A DNA stretch of 64,000 nt from Krasilnikovia cinnamomea (GTDB taxonomy: Bacteria > Actinomycetota > Actinomycetes > Mycobacteriales > Micromonosporaceae), in assembly GCF_004217545.1 (NCBI RefSeq), contig NZ_SHKY01000001.1:372001-436000 (forward strand), given 5' to 3'. Under the pieces are notes generated by a model. That model was not told where the DNA came from. It saw only the letters and a program-made list of their open reading frames with translations, and ran no database searches. Each line of letters starts with the position of its first letter. The stretch's first letter is position 1. Shown in pieces: positions 34,105 through 48,370 of the stretch. A program made the position numbers and the translations under genes.

Positions 34105-36585
34105 GTGACGACCACGATTCATCAGCGCATCGCCGAGGAGCTCGGGGTGCGCGAGCGCCAGGTGACCGCGGCGGTGGAGCTGCTGGACGGCGGGGCGACG
34201 GTGCCGTTCATCGCCCGCTACCGCAAGGAGGTCACGGGCACCCTGGACGACCAGCAGCTGCGCACGCTGGAGGAGCGGCTGGGCTATCTGCGGGAGCTGG
34301 AGGACCGCCGCGCGGCGGTGCTGGAGTCGATCCGCTCCCAGGGCAAGCTGGACGAGGCCCTCGAGGCGCAGGTGCTGGCCGCCGACTCCAAGGCGCGGCT
34401 GGAGGACATCTACCTGCCGTACAAGCCGAAGCGGCGCACCCGCGCGCAGATCGCCCGCGAGGCCGGACTGGAGCCCCTCGCCGAGCTGCTGCTGGGCGAC
34501 CCGACCCGCGACCCGCGCACCGAGGCGGCGGCCTACGTGGACGCCGACAAGGGTGTCGCGGACGCCGCCGCCGCGCTGGACGGCGCCCGCGCCATCCTCG
34601 TCGAGCGCTTCGCCGAGGACGCCGACCTGATCGGCGAGCTGCGCGAACTCATGTGGACCAAGGGCCGGCTGATCGCGAAGGTGCGCGACGGCCAGCAGAC
34701 CGAGGGCGCGAAGTTCGCCGACTACTTCGACTTCGCCGAGGCGTACACGAAGCTGCCGTCGCACCGGATCCTCGCGGTGTTCCGGGGCGAGAAGGAGAAC
34801 GTCCTCGACCTGACCATGGAGCCGGAGCCCGAGGACGCGTCGTCGTTCGAGCCGCGGATCGCGGCCCGTTTCGGCGTGGCCGACCACGGGCGGCCCGGGG
34901 ACAAGTGGCTGGCCGACACGGTGCGCTGGGCCTGGCGTACCCGGATCCTCGTGCACCTCGGCGCGGACCTGCGGCTGCGCCTGTGGCAGGCGGCCGAGGA
35001 CGAGGCGGTCCGGGTCTTCGCGGCCAACCTGCGGGACCTGCTGCTGGCCGCGCCCGCGGGCACGCGGGCCACGATGGGCCTGGACCCCGGTTTCCGTACG
35101 GGCGTGAAGGTGGCCGTGGTCGACGCGACCGGCAAGTGCGTGGCCACCGACACGATCTACCCGCACGTGCCCAGGAACCAGTGGGACGAGTCGATCCACA
35201 AGCTGGCCGGGCTCGCCGCCGCGCACGGCGTGGAGCTGGTCGCCATCGGCAACGGCACCGCGTCGCGGGAGACCGACCGGCTGGCCGCCGACCTGATCAA
35301 GCGGCATCCCGAGCTGACGCTGACCAAGGTGATGGTGTCCGAGGCGGGCGCGTCGGTCTACTCCGCCTCCCCGTACGCGTCGCAGGAACTGCCCGGCCTG
35401 GACGTCTCGCTGCGCGGGGCGGTCTCGATCGCCCGCCGCCTGCAGGACCCGCTCGCCGAGCTCGTGAAGATCGACCCCCGTTCGATCGGCGTCGGGCAGT
35501 ACCAGCACGACCTGTCGGAGCTGAAGCTGTCCAAGTCGCTCGACGCGGTCGTGGAGGACTGCGTGAACGCGGTCGGGGTCGACGTGAACACCGCGTCCGC
35601 GCCGCTGCTGACCCGGGTCTCCGGCATCGGCGCCGGGCTGGCCGAGAACATCGTGCTGCACCGCGACGCGAACGGGCCGTTCCGCAACCGCTCCGCGCTC
35701 AAGCAGGTGGCCCGGCTGGGTCCGAAGGCGTTCGAGCAGTGCGCTGGCTTCCTGCGCATCCCGGACGGCGACGACCCGCTGGACGCCTCCAGCGTGCACC
35801 CCGAGTCGTACCCGGTGGTCCGGACGATCCTCGCGGCGGCGGGCTCGGACCTGCGCACGGTGATCGGGAACAGCCCGCTGCTGCGCGGGCTCAAGCCGGA
35901 CCGGTTCGTCACGGACAAGGTCGGGCTGCCCACGGTCACGGACATCCTGCGCGAGCTGGAGAAGCCGGGCCGGGACCCGCGCCCCGCATTCACCACCGCC
36001 ACGTTCGCCGAGGGCGTCGAGAAGATCGCCGACCTGAAGCCCGGCATGATCCTGGAGGGCGTGGTCACGAACGTGGCCGCGTTCGGCGCGTTCGTGGACG
36101 TCGGGGTGCATCAGGACGGGCTGGTGCACGTGTCGGCGCTGTCGAACACGTTCGTGCAGGATCCGCGCGACGTCGTGAAGTCCGGCGACGTGGTCAAGGT
36201 CCGGGTCGTGGAGGTCGACGAGGCCCGCAAGCGGATCTCGCTGACGATGCGGCTGGAGGACACCCCGCGCCGGGAGCCGGGCGGCCGCTCCCGCGACGGC
36301 CGGGGCGGTCAGGACCAGCAGCGCCAGGGCGGCGGGCCGCGCCAGGGCCAGCAGCGCCAGGGTGACGGGCCCCGCCAGGGCCAGCAGCGCCAGGGCCAGC
36401 AGGGCGGGCAGCGGCAGGGCGAGCAGCGGCAGGGCGGGCAGCGGCAGGGCCAGCCGCGCGACGGTCAGCAGCGGCAGGGTGGCCAGCGGGGTCGCTCGGG
36501 CGGATCCGGTTCCGGTTCCGGCGGCAGCTTCAACGGCGGCGCGATGGCGGACGCCCTGCGGCGGGCGGGCCTGGCCAAGGACTGA
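34105..36585 (+). CDS. tex: Tex family RNA-binding protein with Gln/Gly-rich tail
   Basis: An 826-residue Tex-like transcription accessory protein. It has the N-terminal helical domain ([20 protein letters not shown]), the YqgF-like nuclease fold ([18 protein letters not shown]), the helix-hairpin-helix region ([19 protein letters not shown]), and an S1 RNA-binding domain at about 645-715 ([20 protein letters not shown]). After residue 718 a tail of about 108 residues is built from RQGQQRQG-like repeats and then a Gly/Ser stretch. The S1-plus-disordered-tail arrangement suggests enhanced RNA binding. GTG 34105 has GAGAGGTG upstream. Confidence 0.95.
36300..36500 (+). repeat. In-frame low-complexity repeat in the tex 3' end
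   Basis: Imperfect copies of CGCCAGGGCCAGCAG-type units, encoding [10 protein letters not shown], run through this stretch of the tex gene and give the Gln/Gly/Arg-rich tail. Confidence 0.85.
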
Positions 36586-36595
36586 TCCGCCGGAG

Positions 36596-36625
36596 CCGGG
36601 GTGACGCGGCGCCGCGTCACCCCGG
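36596..36625. terminator. Bidirectional terminator between tex and a kinase gene
   Basis: CCGGGGTGACGCGGC (36596-36610) is followed directly by its exact complement (36611-36625). This is a 30-base perfect palindrome between the convergent stops at 36585 and 36630. Confidence 0.75.
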
Positions 36626-36629
36626 CCGG

Positions 36630-38384
36630 TCAGCTCGCGGAGTAGATCTCGACGTTGCGGAAGGCCACCTCGTAGGCCTGCCCGGCGGGCACACCCTCCT
36701 CGGTGAAGATGCCCAGCACGACGCGCCCGTCGGTGATGAGATCGCGGTCCTGCAGCGGCACCGTGCCCAGCGCCGTGCCGTCGCGCGAGATCTCGACGGT
36801 GTCGCCGACGGTGGTGATCGTGACGTGGGTGGGCGGGCCACCGACGGCGATCGGTGCGGCGTCGAGCGGGAACGTCTTGTAGACGTCCGGATTCGCCCGC
36901 TTGTGCACGCCCACGTACACGGCCTTCTCGCAGAACCGCACCTGGTAGCCGCGAACCGCCTTGAACCGCAGCCAGATGCTCGCGCAACTGCCCGGGGTGC
37001 GCAGCTCCAGATCCACCTCCGTGCGCAGGTCGTTGGGGACCTGATCCAGCGGGCCCCGGCAGCGGAACGACCCGGAGCTCTCCCGGCGCACCACGAGGGC
37101 TCCTTCGAACGAGCAGCTCGCCTTCTCGTTGGCGTCCGACGTCGACTGCCACAACGACCGGACCGTCAGCGCGTCGGTGATGAGCGGGGTGGGTGCGGGC
37201 GCGGTGACCGTCGCGCTCGTGGTGGGCTCGCCCGCGCCGGCGTACCACGGCGGGCCGATCGCCAGCAGCGTGGCGATGCCGAGCACCGCCACCAGCAGCA
37301 CCACGGCCGCGGCCGCGGCGATGGCCCGGCCCGGCCCGCGTTTCGCCCCGTCCGGCTCGGCGGGCGGGGCCGACCGCAACGCGGCGACCGGGCGGGTCTC
37401 GGCCTCGCCGTCGACGATCCCGGCCAGTTCGGGCGCCGGGTTCAGCATGGTGAGCTGGCGGTTCGTGTCGTACCCGGTGGCGGCCTGGGCCTCCTCGGTG
37501 GCCGCCCGCAGCCCCGGCTGGTCGGCCAGGGCGGCCGCCGCGGCCGGTGTCCGCCGGGCGCCGCTGACCAGCAGGTCGAGCAGCTCGCGGGCGGTGGGCC
37601 GGTTCGCGGGGTCCTTCTCCAGAGCGTGCGCGACCAGGTCGCGCAGGGGACCGGAGAGTCCGTCCAGGGTGGGCGGCTGGGTCAGGATCCGGGCGGCGGT
37701 CGCGGTCGGCGAGTCGGCCGAGAACGGGGTACGCCCGGTGCCCGCGTACGTGACGACGCCGCCCCAGGCGAAGATGTCCGCGGCCGGGGTCAGGGTGTGC
37801 CGGACGTCGTCGCCGAAGCGCTCCGGCGCCATGTACGCCACCGTCCCGACCATCTGGTCGGTGCGGGTGAGGCCGGTGGTCGCCTCCAGCGCGCGGGCGA
37901 TGCCGAAGTCGATCACCTTGGGGCTGCCGGGCGCCAGCAGCACGTTGCGGGGCTTGAGGTCGCGGTGGATCACCCCGGCGCCGTGGATGGCGGTGAGCGC
38001 GGTGGCCACGCCGATCGCCACGGAGTGCAGGTTCGCGGAGGTCAGCGGGCCGCGGTCCTGCACGACGTCGGCGAGGCTCGGGCCGTCGACGTACTCGACC
38101 ACGAGGTACGGCAGCTCGTGGTCGGGGTCCGCGTCGAGCACCTCCGCGGTGCAGAACGGCGGCACCTGCCGGACCCGGTCGACCTCGCTGCGGAAGCGCC
38201 GCCGGAACTCGTCGTCGGGCGCCAGGTCCGCCCGGACCACCTTGACCGCCACCAGCGTCCCGCCGGGGTCGCGGGCCAGGTAGACCGTGCCCATGCCGCC
38301 CTGCCCGAGCCGGCCGACGACCTCGTACTTGCCCAGCTGGCGCGGGTCACGCGACCACAGCGGTGCCGCGCGCTCGTTCGTCAT
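36630..38384 (-). CDS. Membrane Ser/Thr protein kinase with extracellular four-Cys domain (kinase 1)
   Basis: A 584-residue PknB-type kinase. The cytoplasmic kinase domain is at residues 17-270: glycine loop GRLGQGGMGTVYLA, VAVKVV, HRDLKPRNVLL, DFGIARA and APERF. A linker leads to one membrane helix at about 345-370 (AIAAAAAVVLLVAVLGIATL). The outer 190 residues form a beta-sandwich-like domain with four cysteines (in KASCSFEG, FRCRGP, GSCASIW, VRFCEKA), shared with kinase 2. No PASTA repeats are present, so the sensed signal is not muropeptide in the PknB manner. It ends convergently with tex and lies 138 bases after kinase 2. Confidence 0.93.
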   Translation of the reverse strand: MTNERAAPLWSRDPRQLGKYEVVGRLGQGGMGTVYLARDPGGTLVAVKVVRADLAPDDEFRRRFRSEVDRVRQVPPFCTAEVLDADPDHELPYLVVEYVDGPSLADVVQDRGPLTSANLHSVAIGVATALTAIHGAGVIHRDLKPRNVLLAPGSPKVIDFGIARALEATTGLTRTDQMVGTVAYMAPERFGDDVRHTLTPAADIFAWGGVVTYAGTGRTPFSADSPTATAARILTQPPTLDGLSGPLRDLVAHALEKDPANRPTARELLDLLVSGARRTPAAAAALADQPGLRAATEEAQAATGYDTNRQLTMLNPAPELAGIVDGEAETRPVAALRSAPPAEPDGAKRGPGRAIAAAAAVVLLVAVLGIATLLAIGPPWYAGAGEPTTSATVTAPAPTPLITDALTVRSLWQSTSDANEKASCSFEGALVVRRESSGSFRCRGPLDQVPNDLRTEVDLELRTPGSCASIWLRFKAVRGYQVRFCEKAVYVGVHKRANPDVYKTFPLDAAPIAVGGPPTHVTITTVGDTVEISRDGTALGTVPLQDRDLITDGRVVLGIFTEEGVPAGQAYEVAFRNVEIYSAS

Positions 38385-38522
38385 CGTGCCCCCACGCCCA
38401 TCCCAGCCCTCGAACGGCCGCCGACCCGCGGCCGACTGGCACCTTATCGGGCAATGTCAGTGCCTGCGAACCCCCTGCCGCGCGTTGCCGCCTAACTGAC
38501 ACTCCGTGATCGCGGCGGGGCC

Positions 38523-40415
38523 TCAGAGGGACTGGATCGCGACGTCCGCGAAGGTCACCGAGGTCGCGGCCCGGGCGGCCGGCGCGGCCACGCTGGCGCC
38601 GAGCACCACCTGGCCGTCCTGGGGTGAGTCGGCGGGCAGCGGGAGGGCACCGGCGAACTCCCCGGCCAGGAACAGCTCGGCCCGCCCCTCGCGCACGACC
38701 AGGTGGATCCGGGTGTCGGCGCCCAGCGGGATCGGGCGCGGCAGCGGCACCGTGCCGAACACCTGCTGGTCCCCGGGGGCGTCCGCGGCGACCGACAGCT
38801 CCCGCTGGCACACCCGCAGGACCTGACCGCCCGCCTCGGAATCCCAGTGGTACCAGACGGCGGCGCAGCCGCCCGCGTTGAGCAGGGTGACGCTCACCTC
38901 GACGGCGAGGTCGCCCGGGAACTGCTCCGCCGGGCCCGGGCACTGCAGGGTGCCGGGGCCGGGGAGGGTGGCGCGCAGAACCCCGCGGACGGTGCAGCCG
39001 GCACCGTCGGCGCGCCGCGCGGTCTCGCGCCACTGGGCGGGCGAGTCGAGCGAATCCTGCAGGTCCGGCTCGCCGGACGGCTCGACCGGAGCGGCGCCCG
39101 GGCCACCACCGTCCCCGCCCGCGCTGCCACCGTCCGCGTCCGCGCTGCCACCGTCCGCGTCCGCACCCGAACCGTCGGCACCGCCGTCCGCCTCCGCACC
39201 CGAACCGTCGGCGCCGTCGTCCGCACCGGAACCGTCGGCGCCGTCGTCCGCGCCAGAGCCGTTCGAGCCGCCGCCAGAGCCATCCGGGTCGCCGCCGCGA
39301 CCGGAGTCGGAGATGAGCGCGTCGCGCGCCAGGCTGTCCAGGCGCAGCACCGCGGCGACGGTCCCGAGACCGGCGAGGACCAGCAGCATCGCCAGGGCCG
39401 CCAGCAGGCGGCCACCGCGCGGGCGCCGGGCGTACGCGACCGGGCCGCCGGGCGGGCGGACCGGGGCCGCCGAGGTCGCCCGGCCCGGATACGCCGGAGG
39501 CGGTCCGGCGAGCCGAGCCGGGGCCTGGGGCGGCCGGGGCCCGGTGCGTGTCGCGGGGCCGGCCGGACGCCGGACCGGCGCCTCGCCGAGCAGCATGTCG
39601 AGCAGTTCGCGGGCGGTGGGCCGCTCCGCCGGGTCCTTGGCCAGCGACAACTCGACGAGGCTGCGCAGCGGCTCGGCCAGCCCGTCGAGGTGCGGCGGCT
39701 GGGTGAGGATGCGCGCGGCGGTGGCCGGCGGCGAGTCGGCCCGGAACGGGGTGCGCCCGGTGCCCGCGTACCCGACCACGCACCCCCACGCGAAGACGTC
39801 CGCGGCGGCGGTCAGCGGCACGCCCGGCTCGGAGGAGAACCGCTCCGGCGCCATGTACGCCACCGTGCCCACCATCTGGTCGGTGCGGGTGAGCTGGCTG
39901 GTCGCCTCGAACGCCCGGGCGATGCCGAAGTCGATGACCTTGGGGCTGCCCGGGGCCAGCAGCACGTTCTCCGGCTTCAGGTCGCGGTGGATGACGCCCG
40001 CGCCGTGGATGCCGGCCAGTGCGGTGGCCACTCCCACGGCCACGGAGTGCAGGTTCGCGGCGGTCAGCGGCCCGCGCTCCTCGACCACCTGGCCGAGGCT
40101 GGGCCCGGGAACGTACTCGACCACCAGGTACGGCGGCTGGTGTTCGAGGTCCGCGTCCAGCACCTCCGCCGTACAGAACGACGGCACCTGGCGGGCCCGC
40201 TGCACCTCGCTGCGGAACCGCTGGCGGAACTCCGGGTCGTGCGACAGCACGGCGTGCACCAGCTTGACCGCGACCGGGCCGCCATCGGGGTCCTCGCCGA
40301 GGTAGACGACACCCATGCCGCCGGATCCGAGCCGCCCGACGAGCCGGTACCGGCCCAGCCGGCGCGGGTCGTTGCGGTGCAGGGCCTGCACCGGGGGCGC
40401 GGCGGGTGCACTCAT
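38523..40415 (-). CDS. Membrane Ser/Thr protein kinase with Asp/Gly/Ser-rich linker and four-Cys sensor domain (kinase 2)
   Basis: A 630-residue paralogue of kinase 1. The kinase domain is at residues 20-275 (GRLGSGGMGVVYLG, VAVKLV, HRDLKPENVLL, DFGIARA), followed by a Pro-rich juxtamembrane stretch and a membrane helix near 345-365 (LLAALAMLLVLAGLGTVAAV). Next is an acidic linker of DGADGSGA-like repeats of about 60 residues, then the four-Cys extracellular domain (GCTVRG, LQCPGP, GGCAAVW, RVCQREL). ATG 40415 overlaps the ccdA stop by four bases (ATGA). The kinase is thus translationally coupled to the redox genes upstream, and I infer that it reports on that system. Confidence 0.93.
   Translation of the reverse strand: MSAPAAPPVQALHRNDPRRLGRYRLVGRLGSGGMGVVYLGEDPDGGPVAVKLVHAVLSHDPEFRQRFRSEVQRARQVPSFCTAEVLDADLEHQPPYLVVEYVPGPSLGQVVEERGPLTAANLHSVAVGVATALAGIHGAGVIHRDLKPENVLLAPGSPKVIDFGIARAFEATSQLTRTDQMVGTVAYMAPERFSSEPGVPLTAAADVFAWGCVVGYAGTGRTPFRADSPPATAARILTQPPHLDGLAEPLRSLVELSLAKDPAERPTARELLDMLLGEAPVRRPAGPATRTGPRPPQAPARLAGPPPAYPGRATSAAPVRPPGGPVAYARRPRGGRLLAALAMLLVLAGLGTVAAVLRLDSLARDALISDSGRGGDPDGSGGGSNGSGADDGADGSGADDGADGSGAEADGGADGSGADADGGSADADGGSAGGDGGGPGAAPVEPSGEPDLQDSLDSPAQWRETARRADGAGCTVRGVLRATLPGPGTLQCPGPAEQFPGDLAVEVSVTLLNAGGCAAVWYHWDSEAGGQVLRVCQRELSVAADAPGDQQVFGTVPLPRPIPLGADTRIHLVVREGRAELFLAGEFAGALPLPADSPQDGQVVLGASVAAPAARAATSVTFADVAIQSL
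39115..39300 (-). repeat. In-frame Asp/Gly/Ser/Ala repeat in kinase 2
   Basis: Direct repeats based on CCGTCGGCGCCGTCGTCCGC on the plus strand encode DGADGSGA-type units that form the extracellular linker of kinase 2. Confidence 0.8.
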
Positions 40416-41287
40416 CGGGCCCCGCCTCCCACCGCGCCAGCGGCGCCCGCCGGCTCGGCCCGGCGCTGCCACCGCAGCCCCGCCGCGACGAGCACCAGCA
40501 GCGCCACGGCGAGCCAGCCCGCGCCGACGCCGCCGATCAGGTCGCTGATCCGGCGCTGCAGGCCGGTGGCGGCGGCGACGAGCGGGTCGTGTCCCGAGAC
40601 CCGCAGGTCCCGGGCGAGGCGCAGCTCGTACCAGCCGTAGTAGGCGACGTATGCGCCGCAGATCAGCAGGACCGCGCCGCCGAGGCGGGGCACCACGGCG
40701 GCGGCCCGCCGCAGCCGGGTCACGGCCGAGGTCCGGGCCAGCGCCACGGCGACCGCGACGACGCCGACGACGATCGCCATGCCGAGCGCGTAGGCCGCGA
40801 ACAGCGCCAGCCCGGCGCCGATGGTTCCGGCGCGCAGGGACGCGGCCACGATGGCGAGGAACGGACCGGCGGCGCAGCCGAGTGAGGCCAGCGCGTACCC
40901 GGCGCCGAACAGTGCAGTGGAGGTGAGCGAGCCGGTCAGCCGGGGGGCGCGCAGCCGGGCGCCGAGCGCGGGCAGCGAGCGCCCGGCCACCAACCATCCA
41001 CCGATCGCGGCCAGCAGCGTGCCGAGCACGACGGTCAGCCACGGCAGGTGCGGCTGGACCCGCGCGGCCAGCGGCGCGACCACGAGGCCGAACGCGCCGA
41101 ACACGGCGACGTACCCGGCGGTGAGGGCGGCGGTGCAGCGCAGCGCGCGGACCACCGGGGCCGCCCCGGCGGGTCCGCCGTCTGCGGACACCAGCAGGGA
41201 CAGGTACGCGGGCAGCAGCGCGAATCCGCACGGGTTCACGGCGCCGAGCATCCCGGCGGTGAGGGCGAGGAGCACCGGCACCTGCAC
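40412..41287 (-). CDS. ccdA: CcdA-type transmembrane thiol-disulfide electron carrier
   Basis: A 291-residue DsbD/CcdA-family membrane protein with six or more membrane helices. The two redox cysteines sit where expected: GAVNPCGFALLPAYLSLL in the first helix and ASLGCAAGPFLAIV in the fourth. CcdA passes reducing electrons from cytoplasmic thioredoxin to extracytoplasmic thioredoxin-like partners; the TlpA-like lipoprotein just upstream is the obvious partner. The start is GTG 41287, three bases after the preceding stop. Its stop overlaps the kinase 2 start. Confidence 0.92.
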   Translation of the reverse strand: MQVPVLLALTAGMLGAVNPCGFALLPAYLSLLVSADGGPAGAAPVVRALRCTAALTAGYVAVFGAFGLVVAPLAARVQPHLPWLTVVLGTLLAAIGGWLVAGRSLPALGARLRAPRLTGSLTSTALFGAGYALASLGCAAGPFLAIVAASLRAGTIGAGLALFAAYALGMAIVVGVVAVAVALARTSAVTRLRRAAAVVPRLGGAVLLICGAYVAYYGWYELRLARDLRVSGHDPLVAAATGLQRRISDLIGGVGAGWLAVALLVLVAAGLRWQRRAEPAGAAGAVGGGAR

Positions 41288-41290
41288 GAC

Positions 41291-41824
41291 TCAGGCCACC
41301 AGCGCCTTGATCTGGGCGGTGAGCTGCAGGTCGTCGAGGTAGCCCGAGATTCGCACCGCCCCGGCGCGGTCCAGCAGCACGTACGTGCTCTGCTCAGTGA
41401 CCCCGAAGCGGCGCCACAGGACGCCCTGCCCGTCGTCCAGGTGCGGCACGGTGCCCACCGTCAGGTCCGCCACGAACCGGTGCATCGCCGTGTTGTCGCC
41501 CATCCCGGCGATGCCGAGCACGGCGAGCCGGTCGCCGTACGTGTCCTTGAGGTCGGCCACGGACTGTGCCTGAGCCGCGCAGGTCGCGCACCACGGGGCC
41601 CAGAACCACAGCACGGTGGGGCGGCCGGCGAGGGTGGCCGCGTCGTACGCCGCCCCGTCGAGGGTGCGGCCGGTGAACCGCAGGTTCGCCGGAACGCTCG
41701 CCGCCGAGCCGGAGCTCGCGGCGGTCTCGGCTGCCGGGCGGGCGGCACAGCCGGCCGTGGCGGCGGCGAGGCCGGCGGCCGCCACCGCCAGAGCCATCGC
41801 CGCCGCCACGGCCCGCCGGGTCAC
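41291..41824 (-). CDS. TlpA/ResA-like thioredoxin-fold lipoprotein or exported protein
   Basis: A 177-residue exported thiol-disulfide protein. An N-terminal hydrophobic signal ends in ATAGCAARP, a lipobox-like site, although Thr at -3 is not ideal. The thioredoxin fold carries the active site FWAPWCATCAAQAQ (CxxC). The final strands are LGIAGMGDNTAMHRFVADL and STYVLLDRAGAVRISGYLDD. GTG 41824 overlaps the stop of the NuoF-like gene by four bases (GTGA). It lies between the NuoF-like gene and ccdA and is probably reduced by CcdA. Its own client could be a haem, a cell-wall thiol or the cysteines of the kinase sensors. Confidence 0.88.
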   Translation of the reverse strand: MTRRAVAAAMALAVAAAGLAAATAGCAARPAAETAASSGSAASVPANLRFTGRTLDGAAYDAATLAGRPTVLWFWAPWCATCAAQAQSVADLKDTYGDRLAVLGIAGMGDNTAMHRFVADLTVGTVPHLDDGQGVLWRRFGVTEQSTYVLLDRAGAVRISGYLDDLQLTAQIKALVA

Positions 41825-43293
41825 TTCCCGGCCGCCTCGGTGAGCCGCAGCGCGAGCGCCGGGCACACGTTGACGGCCCGGCGGGCGCCGTCCTCCAGCC
41901 ATGGCGGCAGGGGCGTCGTCGGGAACGCCGGGAAACCGTTGGCGTCGAGCCGGATGATCTCGGGCGCGACGGCGGAGCACAGCCCGTGCCCGTCGCACCG
42001 CGACCAGTCGAGGGCGAGCTTGCGTACGCCCTGATTCTGGTGGTAGGGCAGCGGCAGGATGCCGCGCACCTGCTTGCCGCAGCCCTCGCCGTTGGCGTGC
42101 GCCGCGACGTCCTTGTGGAAGATCTCCAGCGCGGACAGCGCGAACCGGGCGGTGCCGTCCGGGTGGCTGCACGCGCCGCGGCCCTTGACCACACCCGCGG
42201 CGGCGCGCACGTCCTCCAGCGCGTTGCCGCCCAGCGAGACCAGGGTGACCGAGCGGGCCAGGTCGGGCAGGCCGAGCCGGCACGGCCCGCACTGCCCGGC
42301 GGACTCCCCGGCCAGGTACTGGGTGACCTGGGCGACCTCGCCGAGCGGGCAGGTGGACGACCCGATCGGCAGCAGCATGCCGGCGCCGAGGGTGGCCCCG
42401 GCCTTGGCGAAGCCCTTGCGGCTGATCGTGACGGTCTTCGCGGCCTCGGCGGACAGCCACTTGCCGTGGTAGCCGCCGACCAGGATGCCGGGCCCGATGT
42501 CCGCGCCGCACATGGTGAGGATGTCCATGAGCGGGGTCCCGGTCGGGGCCTCGACGACGGCCGGCGCGGTGGCCGAGCCGCCGACGGTCAGCATGACCGT
42601 GCCGGGCTCCTCGGGGATGCCGACGCTGTTGTACTCCCACGGCCCGAGCCGCGCGGCGATGGCCAGCTGCGAGTACGTCTCCGCGTTGGACAGCAGGGTG
42701 GGCAGGCCCATCACGCCGTTGTCGCTGGAGCGCACCTTGCGCCCGGGCGGGATGTGGGCCTCGCCGTTGATGCCGCGCACCAGGGCACCACCCTCACCGG
42801 AGATGAACCGGTGCGGCACCGTGACAATCCGGGTCGGTACGGGCATCTTGCGCTCGGCCAGCGCCGCCGCGAGCGAGTCCTGGCCGATGCCGTCGTCGGC
42901 GACACCGATGACGATCTCCTCGGCGTCCAGGGCGGCGGCGGCCAGCGCGGCCCCGTCGAGGATCAGGTGCGGGCCCCGGGTGAGGATCGCCTTGTCCTTC
43001 CAGGACGGCGGCTCACCCTCGGTCGCGTTGACCACGATGACCGGCGGCAGGTCCTGGCGGCGGCAGGAGTCCAGCACCGCGCGCACCTTGCGGGCGAACG
43101 GGAACCCCGCCCCGCCGCGGCCGCGCAGCTCGATGCGGTCCGCCAGCCCGATCAGCTCCCCCGAGCTGAGCGCCGCGAAGCCGCCGTGTACCTCCTGGTG
43201 GGCGACCAGGTCGAGGCGGCCGTACTCGTCGAAACCCGCGGTGATGCGCGGGGTCCCGATCGCGGTGACCGGTGGAACCTTGGACGCGCTCAT
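41821..43293 (-). CDS. NuoF-like FMN/Fe-S oxidoreductase with C-terminal ferredoxin domain
   Basis: A 490-residue soluble protein related to the 51-kDa subunit of complex I. FMN/NADH features are LRGRGGAGFPFARK, NATEGEPPSWKDKAIL and FISGEGGALVRGINGEAH. The Fe-S binding region reads ESAGQCGPCRLG with a later GACSHP: the first of the four NuoF cysteines is Ala here. Residues 420-490 form a small ferredoxin, CDGHGLC with a later VNVCPALAL, the three-Cys pattern of 3Fe-4S ferredoxins. It is not part of a nuo operon. It sits between a di-haem membrane protein and a TlpA-like gene, and I infer that it carries NAD(P)H electrons to the membrane protein. Confidence 0.88.
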   Translation of the reverse strand: MSASKVPPVTAIGTPRITAGFDEYGRLDLVAHQEVHGGFAALSSGELIGLADRIELRGRGGAGFPFARKVRAVLDSCRRQDLPPVIVVNATEGEPPSWKDKAILTRGPHLILDGAALAAAALDAEEIVIGVADDGIGQDSLAAALAERKMPVPTRIVTVPHRFISGEGGALVRGINGEAHIPPGRKVRSSDNGVMGLPTLLSNAETYSQLAIAARLGPWEYNSVGIPEEPGTVMLTVGGSATAPAVVEAPTGTPLMDILTMCGADIGPGILVGGYHGKWLSAEAAKTVTISRKGFAKAGATLGAGMLLPIGSSTCPLGEVAQVTQYLAGESAGQCGPCRLGLPDLARSVTLVSLGGNALEDVRAAAGVVKGRGACSHPDGTARFALSALEIFHKDVAAHANGEGCGKQVRGILPLPYHQNQGVRKLALDWSRCDGHGLCSAVAPEIIRLDANGFPAFPTTPLPPWLEDGARRAVNVCPALALRLTEAAGK

Positions 43294-43345
43294 GGCCGCG
43301 CCCCCCGGCGCCGCCCCGCGTCACCCCTGCCGTGGTGGTGCATGT

Positions 43346-45196
43346 TCACTGCGCTTCTCCTCGCAGCTGACGCCAGTACTGGTCGTCGGCCACATCGTCG
43401 GTGCTACGTCCCCGACCGCGACGAGCCCCCCGGCTCGCCCCGCGCGGGGATTCGGGCTGTTCCGCCCGGCGGGCCCGCCGCGACGCCATGTCCACGAGGG
43501 TGGGCGTCTCGTCGGGCTCCAGGTCGGGGCCCCACGCCTGACGGTCGTACTGCGGGCCACCGAGGTCGACGAACTCGCTGCGGCTGTGCCGCCCGGAGTC
43601 GGCCCGGTCGACGTCGCCACCGCGATCCCCACGGTCGCGCCGGGAGCGGGGCGCGGGCGAGGGGTCGTCAGAGTACCGGGTCGAGCGGGGTTCCGGGAGG
43701 CCCGGCGCGTAGCCGGGATCGGCCCACCGGTCGGCGCGGCGGGGCCGCGGGTCGGCGTACCCGTCGTCCTCGGCGGAGCGGCGGCCGCGGGGCGGGTCGT
43801 CGGCGTACCGGCGGCCTCGGGGCTCGTCGTCGCCGCGCGGGGCGCGGCGGGGCTCGTCCTCGGCGTACCAGCCACGGGCCGGAGCGGCCTCGATGGCGCG
43901 GCGCTGCCGGGGGGCGGGCTCGTCCTCGGCGTAGCGGCCGGCGCGGGTCTCGCGCTCGTAGCGGGGCGGCACGTACTGCTCCTGCTCGCCCGTGCGGCGG
44001 CGCGAGCGCGGCGCCGGCTCCTCCTCGGCCTCGAAGTGGCGCCGGCCCGACTCGATCGCCCGCTGCGACATCGCGCGGGTCTCCTCGTCGAAGCGGGGCG
44101 CCGGGCGCCGGGCGGGCCCGTCGGAGTCGGCGTGGCGGCGCGAGCGCGGTGCCTCGTACCCGTCCTCGCGCCGGCCGCGTGGCGCGCGGTCCTCCTCGCC
44201 GGCGCCGCGGCGCGACCGGGTCTCGCGCCGGTACACCTCCTCGTCGTACTCGGACCGGCCATCCGCCTTGGCGGGCGGGGCGCTGTCCGCCTTGGCCGCC
44301 GGCTTGTCTCCGGCGGGCGCGGGGGCGGCCGGGACCCAGGGCTCCAGCACGGCGGTCTCGGTGAGGCCCGGGTTGGAGGAGATCCGCGAGCCGAACCGGT
44401 CGCCGTCGCGGCGCTTCCTCATTCCGGCGGCGCCGCTGGGTGCGAGCTTGCCGACCGGCTTCATGGCGCCCGTGCTGGTGCCGGACTGGGAGGCGAAGTC
44501 CTTCTTGCGGTTCAGGCTGACGGAGACGCGCACGGCGAGGCCGAGGACGACCAGCAGGATGCAGACGACGTAGCTGACGATGACCCAGACCGCGCCGGGG
44601 CGGCCCGCGTTCAGGCCGTGCACCACCGCGAGCGGCCACATCAGGTACGAGCTGGCGTGCACCGAACGCCACATCCACGGCTTGCCGCGGCCGATGAACC
44701 GGGCCCGCGCGATGCCGCTCCACAGGACCACCACCATGATGATCGCGGAGATCGTGCCGAAGCCGACGAAGAAGTTCCCGTGGAGGAACGGGATGAACAC
44801 GTCGATCACATCGATGTGCTGCTCCATCAGCTTCGCCCACAGGTGCACGCCGAGCGCGCCCACGGCGATCACGCCGAAGGTGCGGTGGGCGGACTGCAGC
44901 AGCACGCGCTGCCGGATGGAGAGCACGAGCCGGTCGGTGCTGACCAGGCCGAGCATGATGGTGATCGAGAGCGACACCAGGGTGAGCACACCCATGTAGT
45001 ACTCGAGATAGGCGAAGACATAGACGTACAGGACACGGCCGGCCGGCGTGAGCATCGCGGCGGCCCAGATCGCCAGGATGATCGAGACCGCGAGGGTCAC
45101 GATCGCGAGCTTCGACGGCGGGGTGGGGCCACCGGTGGCGTCCATCGGCACGCTTCCACGATTGGCGGATCGTTGGTTCAGCTTCGTCCGGGCCAT
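43346..45196 (-). CDS. Ferric-reductase/NOX-like di-haem membrane protein with long disordered tail
   Basis: A 616-residue protein. Six membrane helices span residues 29-226. Helix 3 has His104 and His118 (H-x13-H) and helix 5 has His180 and His193 (H-x12-H), the same spacing as the two-haem core of NADPH oxidases, FRE reductases and MsrQ. No FAD or NADPH domain follows. Instead residues 227-616 are a hydrophilic Arg/Asp/Glu/Pro-rich stretch (repeated RGRRYAD, DEPRR and similar) predicted to be disordered and cytoplasmic. ATG 45196 has GAGGAG just upstream and replaces a longer frame from 45253. It is the first gene of the redox-kinase operon. Confidence 0.88.
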   Translation of the reverse strand: MARTKLNQRSANRGSVPMDATGGPTPPSKLAIVTLAVSIILAIWAAAMLTPAGRVLYVYVFAYLEYYMGVLTLVSLSITIMLGLVSTDRLVLSIRQRVLLQSAHRTFGVIAVGALGVHLWAKLMEQHIDVIDVFIPFLHGNFFVGFGTISAIIMVVVLWSGIARARFIGRGKPWMWRSVHASSYLMWPLAVVHGLNAGRPGAVWVIVSYVVCILLVVLGLAVRVSVSLNRKKDFASQSGTSTGAMKPVGKLAPSGAAGMRKRRDGDRFGSRISSNPGLTETAVLEPWVPAAPAPAGDKPAAKADSAPPAKADGRSEYDEEVYRRETRSRRGAGEEDRAPRGRREDGYEAPRSRRHADSDGPARRPAPRFDEETRAMSQRAIESGRRHFEAEEEPAPRSRRRTGEQEQYVPPRYERETRAGRYAEDEPAPRQRRAIEAAPARGWYAEDEPRRAPRGDDEPRGRRYADDPPRGRRSAEDDGYADPRPRRADRWADPGYAPGLPEPRSTRYSDDPSPAPRSRRDRGDRGGDVDRADSGRHSRSEFVDLGGPQYDRQAWGPDLEPDETPTLVDMASRRARRAEQPESPRGASRGARRGRGRSTDDVADDQYWRQLRGEAQ

Positions 45197-45593
45197 TGAC
45201 TCCTCGTTCTCCGCAGCGGTCGCGTCTCGGCGGGCCTTCCTTGACGCCGGCACCCGTGGGGGATGCCCCGCGCTATTCCGTTGGGCGGTGCCGCAGACCT
45301 ACCTTTCTCACCGTGCGTTGCGGCCAGTCCCTGCCCAATCCCCATCTACGTGTGCGGGCCGCGTGCGGATGAACGATCCGCAACTTCTTTGTCGGCAACT
45401 TTGCACCGGGCTGCTAGGGCACCCGCTTGCATGGCCTCTGAGCTGCGAAGACATCGGAGCGCAACCGACGGGTAAGAGAAAAGTAAGGTCCCCGCGCGGG
45501 TAATCCCGCACACGTGGTGAACCTTTCGGCGGCGCCGCCCGAACTACCTCGTGAGCGAGCAAGCTGACGCCTGAGCGTAAGGAGATGGTCGCC
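45197..45593. promoter_or_regulatory. Divergent intergenic region between redox operon and surface protein
   Basis: Nearly 400 bases without a convincing gene; they must hold both divergent promoters. Two GCAACTT elements occur 15 bases apart (45380-45386 and 45395-45401), a helically spaced direct repeat. A short hairpin GCGGG-TAAT-CCCGC lies at 45496-45509. The stretch 45470-45490 is locally A/G-rich. No -35/-10 pair is convincing. Confidence 0.4.
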
Positions 45594-46409
45594 GTGCGGC
45601 ATCGTGCTGCCCTGCTCTTGGCGGTGCCGGTGGTCGCGGCCGCGGCCGCGTTCCTGGTCCTGCCCAGTGCCGCCTCGGCGGCGCCCGGCCCCGGTGGGGC
45701 CGAGGTCCGCATCACCGAGGCACCCCGGACACTCGACGCGGGCGAGGACGCGGACACGGTCACCGCCGTCGTCACGACGGACCGCGGCGGCCGTTGCCGC
45801 AAGGTGCGCTGGTCGGCGGTGCTGCGGGCGGAGGGCCCCAGCCTCGATCAGGTACGCGTGCAGCGGATCGAGGACGACGGCGACTTCGCGGTGCAGGTGC
45901 AGGCCGCCGGTGACGCCGCCCGCCTGACCGATGTGCAGTTCGACCCGGGTGAACTGTGCCGGGGCAAGACCGTGACAGCGCGGTACCGGATCGCGGTGGA
46001 CGAGGACGCGCCGCAGGGCCGGATCACGCTGGAGGTGCAGGCGTTCGAAGGGGGTGTGCGGGCGCTGGGTGCCGCCGTCACGACCGCCACGGTGCAGGGC
46101 GAGGGTGCGCAGCCGGAGCCGAGCGAGTCCGAGGAGGCCGAGCCGAGCCCGTCACCGGACGAGTCGGACGACACCGGCGGCGCGGCCGTCGGCGACACCA
46201 CGGAACCGTCCGGGCGGAACCCGGGCGCGGCCGCCCCGGCGGCCGACAACGCCGCCTCCTCCTCGGACGGCTCCTCCGGCCTGCTCGGGCCCGGCCTGAT
46301 CGTCGGGGCGCTGCTGGTCTTCGCCGGGGTGGGCCTGCTGCTGCGGCTGCGTACCCGCAACCGGGCGGCACGCCACCCCATGCCGACCTCGTTCTACCCG
46401 GCCCCGTGA
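45594..46409 (+). CDS. Secreted, C-terminally membrane-anchored surface protein
   Basis: A 271-residue protein with a signal peptide (residues 1-30, ending AASAAPG). A beta-rich ectodomain of about 135 residues has two cysteines (GGRCRKVRW and GELCRGKTV). A Ser/Glu/Pro/Asp-rich stalk follows, then a single membrane helix (GLIVGALLVFAGVGLLLRL) and a short basic tail. No LPXTG motif is visible. The start is placed at GTG 45594 because AAGGAG lies eight bases before it; the ATG at 45585 directly abuts that site. Function unknown. It is divergent from the redox operon and may share its regulation. Confidence 0.82.
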   Translation: MRHRAALLLAVPVVAAAAAFLVLPSAASAAPGPGGAEVRITEAPRTLDAGEDADTVTAVVTTDRGGRCRKVRWSAVLRAEGPSLDQVRVQRIEDDGDFAVQVQAAGDAARLTDVQFDPGELCRGKTVTARYRIAVDEDAPQGRITLEVQAFEGGVRALGAAVTTATVQGEGAQPEPSESEEAEPSPSPDESDDTGGAAVGDTTEPSGRNPGAAAPAADNAASSSDGSSGLLGPGLIVGALLVFAGVGLLLRLRTRNRAARHPMPTSFYPAP

Positions 46410-46455: not shown

Positions 46456-48222
46456 TCAGGACAGCGGCGGGTACGCGTTGGCCATCAGCTCACGGAACTG
46501 GGCGGAGAACCAGGCCCCCGACAGGGGAGCCCCGGACAGGGCACCGGTCAGGTTGTTGCCGTTGCGGGCGTTGCCGGTGTACGTCGGGTCGCACATCCGG
46601 TCGAAACCCTTGCCCTCGTCGTTCGGGATGAGGGTGCTGGAGCCGTCCGACTCCCCCGGCGGCTTGACCCACACGTACGCGTCGATGCCCGGTTCGGGGG
46701 CCGCCGTGGGCCGCTCGCCCAGGCCCGCACCGGACTGGTTGCACCAGTTGCCGGCGTGGATGCGGCGGTCGACGCGCGACTCGTTGACGAACGTGTTCAC
46801 GTCCGTCGACGTGCTGGCCCGGGTGGGCCGGTTCGGGCCGCCCCAGCCGTTGCGGGAGGTGTCGATGAGCATCCCGATGCCCGGGTCGAAGCCGATCGAG
46901 ACGAGCTTGCTCCGGAACGCGGTGGCGAACGTCAGCTCGTCGACGTACTGGTTCCAGTCGATCCACTTCGACTGCCGTACGGAGGTCCCGTTGACCGTCG
47001 AGGCGACCGTGAAGTGCGGCTCCCGCAGCGCCGAGTAGTTGGCGGTGTCGGTGATGAACCCGGTGACGTTGCGGACGTCCCCGGAGGCCCGGGCGGTCTG
47101 CAGCATCAGGTCGGCGGTGGGGCCGAAGCTGGAATCCCAGCCGATCCAGCCGTGGTGCGCCGCGTCGAGGTAGTTGTAGGTGTTGCCGATCGCCCCGAGC
47201 TTGCGCAGCGCGTACGCGATGCCGTTGACGTATCCGCCGTTGCTCTTCATGGTGTCGCACATCGCGGTGGCACCGGCCTGGCCGGCGGTGTTGGTGACCA
47301 GGTTCGGCAACGAGTCGATCTCGATGACGTTGATGATGCGCAGGCCGCGGTACCTGGCGTCGGCCTGGATCGCGGCGATCGGGTCGATGTACTCGGCCTG
47401 GTAGCGGGGCAGGTCGGTGGGCCCCAGTTCGCCGTTGGAGGCCAGCGCGGCGCAGTCGCGGCCGGGCAGGTTGTAGATGACGAGCTGGATGTAGCCGGCG
47501 CCCTGGGCGAGCGCGGCGTCGAGGTGGTCGCGCAGACCCATGGCGCCGTTGGAACCGCTGCCGGTGGCGCCGTCGATGGCGGCGATCCGGTCCAGCCACA
47601 CGGCGGTGGGGTTCTGCGAGATCCGGCTGCCGCCCGGCTCGGCCTCCGCCTTGGCCCTCCACTCGGGATTGACGTAGCCCTTGGCCCCGACGTACGGGTT
47701 GTCGACCCGCGACCCGGGGGCCGGCGAGGTCGGGGGCGTGGTGGGCGGGGTGGTCGGGGGCGGGGTGGTCGGGGGCGGGGTGGTCGGGGTCGTGCCGGTG
47801 CAGGCGACGCCGTTGAGCGAGAACGTGGCGGGGGCCGTGTTGGTGCCGGAGTAGTCGGCGTTGAAGCCGAGCGACGCCGTGGCGTCGGTGGCCAGCGACG
47901 CGGACCAGCCGGGATTGGCCACGCTGACCCGCTGGCCGGACTGGCTGAAGGTGCCGTTCCAGCCCTGGGTGATGCGCTGGTTGCCGGCGAACTCCCAGGT
48001 CAGCGTCCAGCCGTCGGTGATCGGGTCGCCGAGGTTGGTCAGGTTGATCGACCCGGTGAACCCGGTGTTCCACTGGTTGACGGAGTAGGCCACGCGGCAG
48101 CCGGCCGCCGCGTGCGCGCCGGGGGCGAGCGCGACGACGCCGGCGCCCGAAACGGCGGCGGCGAGGGCCGCGGTGGCACCGCGTGCCAGGCGTGAGCGCC
48201 GGGTGGGTGGATCGGATCTCAT
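46456..48222 (-). CDS. Secreted GH6 cellulase with N-terminal CBM2
   Basis: A 588-residue exported cellulase. After a signal peptide (about residues 1-39) comes a CBM2 cellulose-binding module (residues 40-142; CRVAYSVNQWNTGFTGSINL and WNGTFSQSGQ, with surface Trp and Cys at both ends). A Pro/Thr linker leads to a GH6 catalytic domain from about 170. The GH6 parts are VIYNLPGRDCAALASNGE, RIINVIEIDSLPNLVTNT, YNYLDAAHHGWIGWD, and DAYVWVKPPGESDGSS near the end. It degrades cellulose from chain ends or internally; the subtype cannot be fixed by eye. ATG 48222 follows GAGGAG. An exact CebR-type operator lies 149 bases upstream. Confidence 0.94.
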   Translation of the reverse strand: MRSDPPTRRSRLARGATAALAAAVSGAGVVALAPGAHAAAGCRVAYSVNQWNTGFTGSINLTNLGDPITDGWTLTWEFAGNQRITQGWNGTFSQSGQRVSVANPGWSASLATDATASLGFNADYSGTNTAPATFSLNGVACTGTTPTTPPPTTPPPTTPPTTPPTSPAPGSRVDNPYVGAKGYVNPEWRAKAEAEPGGSRISQNPTAVWLDRIAAIDGATGSGSNGAMGLRDHLDAALAQGAGYIQLVIYNLPGRDCAALASNGELGPTDLPRYQAEYIDPIAAIQADARYRGLRIINVIEIDSLPNLVTNTAGQAGATAMCDTMKSNGGYVNGIAYALRKLGAIGNTYNYLDAAHHGWIGWDSSFGPTADLMLQTARASGDVRNVTGFITDTANYSALREPHFTVASTVNGTSVRQSKWIDWNQYVDELTFATAFRSKLVSIGFDPGIGMLIDTSRNGWGGPNRPTRASTSTDVNTFVNESRVDRRIHAGNWCNQSGAGLGERPTAAPEPGIDAYVWVKPPGESDGSSTLIPNDEGKGFDRMCDPTYTGNARNGNNLTGALSGAPLSGAWFSAQFRELMANAYPPLS

Positions 48223-48370
48223 GGTGGGGGCTCCTCGGGGATGGAGTGGGGGCGCGACCGGGCAGTGTGGCCGGGCTGACCGGCGAGGTCGCGACTGCCG
48301 ACACCCGGGGCCGGTCGGCGGTGATCGACACATGGACATCGGTCACTGCGACCGCCCCGTCAGCATGGCA

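Follow-up and report, generated by a model that had tools for sequence, protein, structure and literature searches.

Gene content of the locus

The locus described here lies at positions 36630..45196 of a 64,000-nucleotide (nt) stretch of Krasilnikovia cinnamomea DNA (contig NZ_SHKY01000001.1; the whole stretch is referred to as the window) and holds six minus-strand genes, the first two of which, encoding a haem membrane protein and a NuoF-like protein, are the main subject of this analysis. The haem gene (43346..45196) encodes a putative di-haem protein of 616 amino acids (aa) with a predicted NOX fold, comprising six transmembrane (TM) helices with the histidine pairs H104/H118 and H180/H193, followed by a long tail assigned to the cytosol. 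This length results from an ATG start with GAGGAG upstream; the mechanical open reading frame begins at a GTG at 45253. The NuoF-like gene (41821..43293) encodes a 490-aa flavin mononucleotide (FMN) and iron-sulfur (Fe-S) protein with a C-terminal ferredoxin (Complex1_51K, NADH_4Fe-4S and Fer4_15). Further along lie genes for a 177-aa TlpA-like thioredoxin-fold protein (41291..41824; Redoxin/AhpC-TSA), with a WCATC motif and an N-terminus that by eye resembles a signal sequence with a lipobox, for a 291-aa CcdA/DsbD-TM-like protein with two conserved cysteines (40412..41287), and for two membrane Ser/Thr kinases of the Pkinase family with four-cysteine ectodomains, kinase A of 630 aa (38523..40415) and kinase B of 584 aa (36630..38384), which are neighbours at the level of the genus.

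An earlier note on this DNA had read these genes as a split NOX-like redox system coupled to sensor kinases. The open reading frames are present as it described them, domain searches confirmed the NuoF-like/ferredoxin, TlpA-like, DsbD/CcdA-like and kinase assignments, and its three junctions are exact (overlaps at 41821-41824 and 40412-40415, and a gap at 41288-41290). Two gaps that it did not mention separate the haem gene from the NuoF-like gene (52 nt) and the two kinase genes from each other (138 nt, 38385-38522).

Conservation of the haem/NuoF-like pair

The earlier note had also called for a survey of the neighbourhoods of the haem and NuoF-like homologues, and this survey revealed that they co-occur. 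Among 150 genomes of the family, orthologs of the NuoF-like protein were found at 78 places in 77 genomes, at an identity of at least 59%, and all 78 loci were fetched; the stretches often reach 7 kb upstream and 11 kb downstream, and contig ends shorten the others. The haem gene lay alongside the NuoF-like ortholog in 77 of the 78, and the exception has just 389 bases upstream before the contig ends. In the gene calls, both members lay on the same strand in 93 of the 94 pairs (76 from the family, eight from group f4 g50 and ten unfused relatives), most commonly with a four-base overlap, and the gap did not exceed 100 nt in 73 of the 76 family pairs. The gene caller was home-made, so that starts and some counts are approximate, and the clustering failed to pick up two loci (L056 and L074), though the haem gene of L056 was found in the linkage search.

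Outside the family, 396 genomes of the phylum yielded 39 with a NuoF-like match (E <= 1e-40) and 76 with a match to the haem-protein core (E <= 1e-10). A same-strand haem gene was found within 4 kb of 25 of the 44 NuoF-like places, and ten of the remaining 19 belong to genera g45 or g46, which are taken to be mycobacterial or near, judging from named loci of another scan. The pair was also found in 8 of 11 genomes of group f4 g50, probably Streptomyces. A wider contig scan, in which 29 of 80 listed loci were examined and near relatives of the window may have been left out, gave a haem gene in 16 of the 29 loci examined among the matches listed, namely nine of the 11 with a recognised fused ferredoxin and seven others. 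The two misses among the fused loci have 461 and 725 bases upstream. The other loci among the 29 that gave no haem gene are L180, with 95 bases upstream, L188, with a partial NuoF match and no ferredoxin recognised, and nine more, mycobacterial and nocardial loci included. Since the haem and NuoF-like genes stand side by side in 77 of the 78 family loci, while tlpA, ccdA and the kinases are patchy (see below), it is the pair that forms the unit. With the NuoF-like ortholog in 77 of 150 family genomes and the pair in 8 of 11 f4 g50 genomes, a function established in one strain would apply widely.

Fold and cofactor residues of the haem protein

In the predicted model of the haem protein, the pairs H104/H118 and H180/H193 are placed in TM3 and TM5. 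All four residues were invariant in the 39 rows chosen for alignment, and both pairs were present in 93 of 94 gene-called homologues, the sole miss (L100) being a truncated gene call. This conservation indicates that the features are not due to chance, and together with the fold the two pairs suggest that the protein carries two haems. The whole 616-aa protein had no Pfam or NCBIfam match at E <= 0.1. Its core reached Ferric_reduct (PF01794) at E = 0.02 with 15.4 bits, under the gathering score of 28, and 19 of 39 members matched the same profile at E <= 1, the best at 2.8e-9. A sequence search of the PDB with the haem-protein profile gave nothing relevant. Among structural neighbours of the predicted fold, SpNOX and csNOX5 came out on top, with STEAP and cytochrome b561 scoring nearly as high. 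By Pfam, no flavin adenine dinucleotide (FAD)/NAD(P)H dehydrogenase domain of the NOX/FRE type was present in the chain, the tail being charged and of low hydrophobicity. The idea of a NOX-like fold with a split flavin donor is supported.

With these structural neighbours, and all four NOX-type histidines in place, the protein could be a NOX-like enzyme whose product is extracellular superoxide, formed by the reduction of oxygen. We regard this as unlikely, considering that STEAP and cytochrome b561 resemble the fold almost equally well and that the donor chain is unlike that of NOX.

The NuoF-like protein and its ferredoxin

Profile and structure searches grouped the NuoF-like protein with NuoF, HydB and NfnB; the complex I NuoF of the same genome is a separate gene. 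In the N3 site (ESCGxC..C..C) the first cysteine is replaced by alanine (A332, in at least 90% of 39 rows), and C315, C335, C338, C375, C405 and H399 were invariant in all 39 chosen rows. This pattern may point to an Fe-S ligand relocated to C405, although C405 may instead be an inherited metal site, because the Nfn-type electron-bifurcating protein also has a cysteine nearby. The C-terminal ferredoxin (41833..42024, minus strand) reads CDGHGLC...CP, and so has the CXX?XXC(X)nCP motif. By the classification in PMC6237146, where the CXXHXXC class is described as carrying [3Fe-4S] clusters in other bacteria, it would be of the [3Fe-4S] type.

The NuoF-like protein carried the ferredoxin in its own chain in 76 of the 78 family loci and in all eight f4 g50 loci. 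In the tree, 95 fused tips fell within a single clade of 97 (support 0.966), and the other two, L100 and L104, were counted as unfused owing to a late frame change and a contig end, respectively. Other lineages arrange the same modules differently. In relatives such as L109, L148 and L152, the ferredoxin is a separate small gene directly after the NuoF-like gene, and in L245 it accompanies apbE and the haem gene, the fetched stretch showing no NuoF-like gene. The haem protein of L247, L248 and L249 itself ends in a fused CxxFxxC-type ferredoxin, followed in L247 and L249 by a gene for an FAD ferredoxin reductase in place of NuoF (PF07992 and PF14759 in L249); loci of this last type were chosen from weak haem matches and serve as examples, not as a rate. 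These swaps support a route from NuoF-like protein through ferredoxin to haem. Taken with the linkage of the pair, the fusion of ferredoxin to either partner in different lineages makes the NuoF-like protein a likely donor to the haem protein, as the earlier note had proposed.

Three mycobacterial NuoF-like loci (L155, L183 and L185) have, by eye, ferredoxin and Rieske-like genes alongside and no haem match, and L155 and L185 also have cytochrome P450 genes (by eye; one P450 by Pfam). Members of this mycobacterial branch may be ferredoxin reductases for P450s that have so far gone unrecognised. The NuoF-ferredoxin protein could likewise be mainly a general NADH:ferredoxin reductase serving soluble P450 and Rieske enzymes, to which the haem gene is a mere neighbour. 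That reading is very improbable in the face of the 77/78 linkage, the ferredoxins fused to the haem protein elsewhere and the two genomes of g45, a genus taken to be mycobacterial, that do have the linked pair.

The cytosolic tail and its terminal motif

The haem protein's 388-aa tail (43349..44512, minus strand) is probably disordered, judging from its composition of 40% K/R/D/E and 9% V/I/L/M/F/W, and its placement in the cytosol is based on charge. It ends in the motif YWRQLRGEA (43353..43378, minus strand). In 62 of the 76 family haem proteins, a YWxxLRGE-type motif falls within the final 25 residues, a few of the 14 that fail the pattern (L102, L103, L107 and L108) being near-matches, and a second tail stretch like DDTPTLVDLASRRARR was found in 55 of the 76. 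The motif was absent from all eight f4 g50 forms and all ten unfused forms. A strict DNA pattern of the motif matched once in the window's own genome. Of 61 family genomes scanned with it, 27 have the ortholog, and 14 of these gave the 14 matches obtained; all 14 lay just upstream of the NuoF-like ortholog (compared by eye), and a reversed control gave one match.

Long tails accompany the fused ferredoxin, with genus means of 80-466 aa in the family and 90-347 aa in f4 g50, and nine of ten unfused forms have tails of 12-33 aa (the remaining one 196 aa); as the loci share ancestry, this counts as one association. The codons of the motif contain GAGGAG, a possible ribosome-binding site for the next gene, which in the window starts 52 nt past the stop. 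Such likeness cannot explain the conserved YW or the second stretch. Most likely, the disordered tail with its terminal motif docks or tethers the NuoF-ferredoxin protein.

TlpA, CcdA and the kinases

Over the 78 family loci, tlpA was found in 30, ccdA in 19 and a same-strand kinase in 13, the first two counts being lower bounds because some loci are cut short by contig ends. The 16 loci of g29 and of the window's genus g1 all had tlpA; ccdA was present in eight of them and a same-strand kinase in 13, with the kinase of L039 on the other strand; in genus g4, tlpA was present in 12 of 15 loci and ccdA in 11 of 15. On this distribution, TlpA and CcdA are excluded as obligatory partners and appear as an accessory of some genera. 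The thiol arm proposed in the earlier note, in which TlpA and CcdA supply reducing power outside the cell, accordingly receives weak support. The CcdA-like protein matched DsbD_TM with 20.8 bits, below the cut-off of 27.1, and its two cysteines were conserved in 19 of 19 aligned sequences. All 30 aligned TlpA-like proteins contain WCAxC. Thioredoxin-fold proteins usually have a cis-proline further along the chain, and in all 30 the corresponding residue, after a normal CxxC site, is serine.

The earlier note also had the kinases read the result of this chemistry, so that all six genes would form a redox-sensing unit in which the haem and TlpA/CcdA routes export electrons and the kinases respond through extracellular cysteines. 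The overlapping junctions fit this reading, as does the ectodomain, whose four cysteines were found in each of 19 aligned locus kinases and which, at E <= 0.01, matched nothing in the genome beyond these two kinases, so that a dedicated kinase role is possible. However, the same-strand kinase seen nearby in 13 of 16 g1/g29 loci was found in none of the 62 other ortholog loci. The kinase follows tlpA or ccdA without an intervening gene in 6 of the 16 (one more is cut by a contig end), and an opposite-strand gene precedes it in several g1 loci. The 138-nt gap between the kinase genes, and the similarity of the two adjacent kinases, which suggests a local duplication, likewise speak against a six-gene unit. 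Such a unit is therefore doubtful, and kinases as a core part are excluded by distribution (13 of 78 loci, all g1/g29); they are a local neighbour. More doubtful still is a combined scheme for this genus. It would join a ferredoxin-fed NOX, having a P450-style NADH-to-ferredoxin chain, a re-ligated NuoF-like cluster and recruitment by a conserved C-terminal peptide on the disordered tail, to two dedicated kinases, with conduit and TlpA/CcdA together setting the redox state of their extracellular cysteines.

Flavinylation

An MsrQ-like system feeding an extracytoplasmic FMN protein flavinylated by ApbE is a further reading. Meheust et al. 2021 (PMC8238504) described this for MsrQ-like clusters, among which 31 have a NuoF-like member, and apbE adjoins distant relatives: a home-made profile found it in 9 of 14 other first-survey loci and in 6 of 10 further loci. 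It also stood alongside in 15 of 20 chosen haem loci without a NuoF-like row; these 20 had no ferredoxin match, one opposite-strand NuoF-profile match (L294) and one ferredoxin-reductase-like match about 4 kb away (L292). In the ortholog set, however, the profile found apbE in none of 86 loci (78 family, eight f4 g50) within the stretches fetched, and flavinylation was rejected as the outlet for this set. A check of the loci for FMN_bind, weak since it used a single typed query sequence, matched only the genome's own protein. Elsewhere in the window's own genome, about 0.8 Mb away, the one FMN-binding place found adjoins the one apbE place (L246, C1:1199086-1217974). We consider a flavinylated acceptor for the window system very unlikely. 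The haem protein next to these distant genes appears from its sequence to be a flavocytochrome of the usual single-chain kind.

Upstream region and neighbouring genes

Upstream of the haem gene, putative functional elements around GTTCATCCG and CACGTA (45347..45374, minus strand) are conserved, all 16 aligned g1/g29 loci having the same TCATCCG and ACGTA (region 45197-45584). The divergent gene beyond (45585..46409, plus strand), conserved in the same 16 loci, encodes what by eye is probably a secreted, membrane-anchored protein, with no Pfam match at E <= 0.01, and may share its promoter region with the haem gene. A 19-nt palindrome at 45364-45382 was discarded, as it is not kept as a palindrome in other aligned loci. 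No sigma-70-like promoters were found in 36400-45700, and terminator-like sites (3 against 1.1 expected) were not used as evidence. The flanking genes, which we take from their sequences to be a Tex-like gene (34105-36585) and one similar to genes for cellulose-binding GH6 cellulases (46456-48339), had no visible link to the finding. In some other loci, certain neighbouring genes resemble those for DUF4142 and Lipoprotein_15 proteins (by eye; both typed by Pfam in L249); with TlpA here, they suggest clade-specific partners outside the cell.

A proposed electron conduit

In many actinobacteria, electrons from NADH inside the cell seem to reach the outside through a NuoF-like/ferredoxin protein and a NOX-shaped haem protein. 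For the window, a two-protein transmembrane conduit, from the NuoF-like/ferredoxin protein through the NOX-fold haem protein to an outside acceptor, is the probable reading. It is based on the linkage of the genes, the cofactor residues, the predicted folds, the topology read from charge, the fusion swaps and the terminal motif, which in the genomes scanned occurs at this gene alone; from these we infer the use of NADH, the direction of the electrons, the docking and the acceptor. The cytosolic NuoF-like protein would oxidise NADH at FMN and pass the electrons through its modified NuoF-type Fe-S site to the fused CxxHxxC ferredoxin. The ferredoxin, held close by the tail and its terminal motif, would reduce the inner haem, and the outer haem would reduce an extracytoplasmic acceptor, most likely a cell-envelope redox partner or a metal, supplied by exchangeable neighbouring genes. 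TlpA and CcdA would here form a parallel or coupled thiol arm, and the kinases would be a lineage-specific addition, perhaps sensors, outside the conduit. If this holds, NOX-like membrane reduction needs neither a fused flavin domain nor a flavinylated partner, one NADH-ferredoxin module can serve both P450-type chemistry and electron export, and the terminal motif offers a simple handle on partner recruitment.

Comparison with known systems

The donor shares with NuoF, HydB and NfnB the predicted fold and the FMN and Fe-S domains, but differs in the alanine at the first N3 position, the invariant H399 and C405, the kind of ferredoxin and the lack of further complex I genes seen alongside. MsrPQ also uses a separate flavoprotein as donor to an FRD membrane protein, whereas the donor family is a different one here; no MsrP gene was recognised among the neighbour families read, which cover part of the neighbours. 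NOX and SpNOX have the same TM fold and four histidines, but NOX carries its FAD/NADPH dehydrogenase within the same chain (PMC3591440), whereas here the donor is the separate NuoF-ferredoxin protein. Class I P450 chains, as treated in PMC6237146, share the CXX?XXC ferredoxin class, and two relatives of the window system use an FAD ferredoxin reductase in NuoF's place; the haem protein served is, however, a membrane FRD protein and not a P450.

The closest likeness is to the flavinylation-associated MsrQ-like systems, some of which, according to PMC8238504, likewise occur in Actinobacteria and have a NuoF-like protein as the distinct cytosolic donor to an FRD membrane protein. Hence NuoF-like proteins feeding MsrQ-like proteins are not a new idea, and the earlier statement that no such system had been described holds in part, such clusters having been noted in 2021. 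What remains of it is that those clusters were defined by apbE or FMN-binding genes. The window system differs from them in that apbE was not detected, that a single chain joins the NuoF-like protein to its ferredoxin, and that a long tail with the terminal motif extends from the haem protein; searches of open-licence papers did not turn up this ferredoxin-fused, apbE-free form. The system is broad but a variant of one already in print, and the kinase part of the earlier proposal is unsupported. In sum, the window encodes a flavinylation-free, ferredoxin-fed variant of a known MsrQ/NOX-like system.

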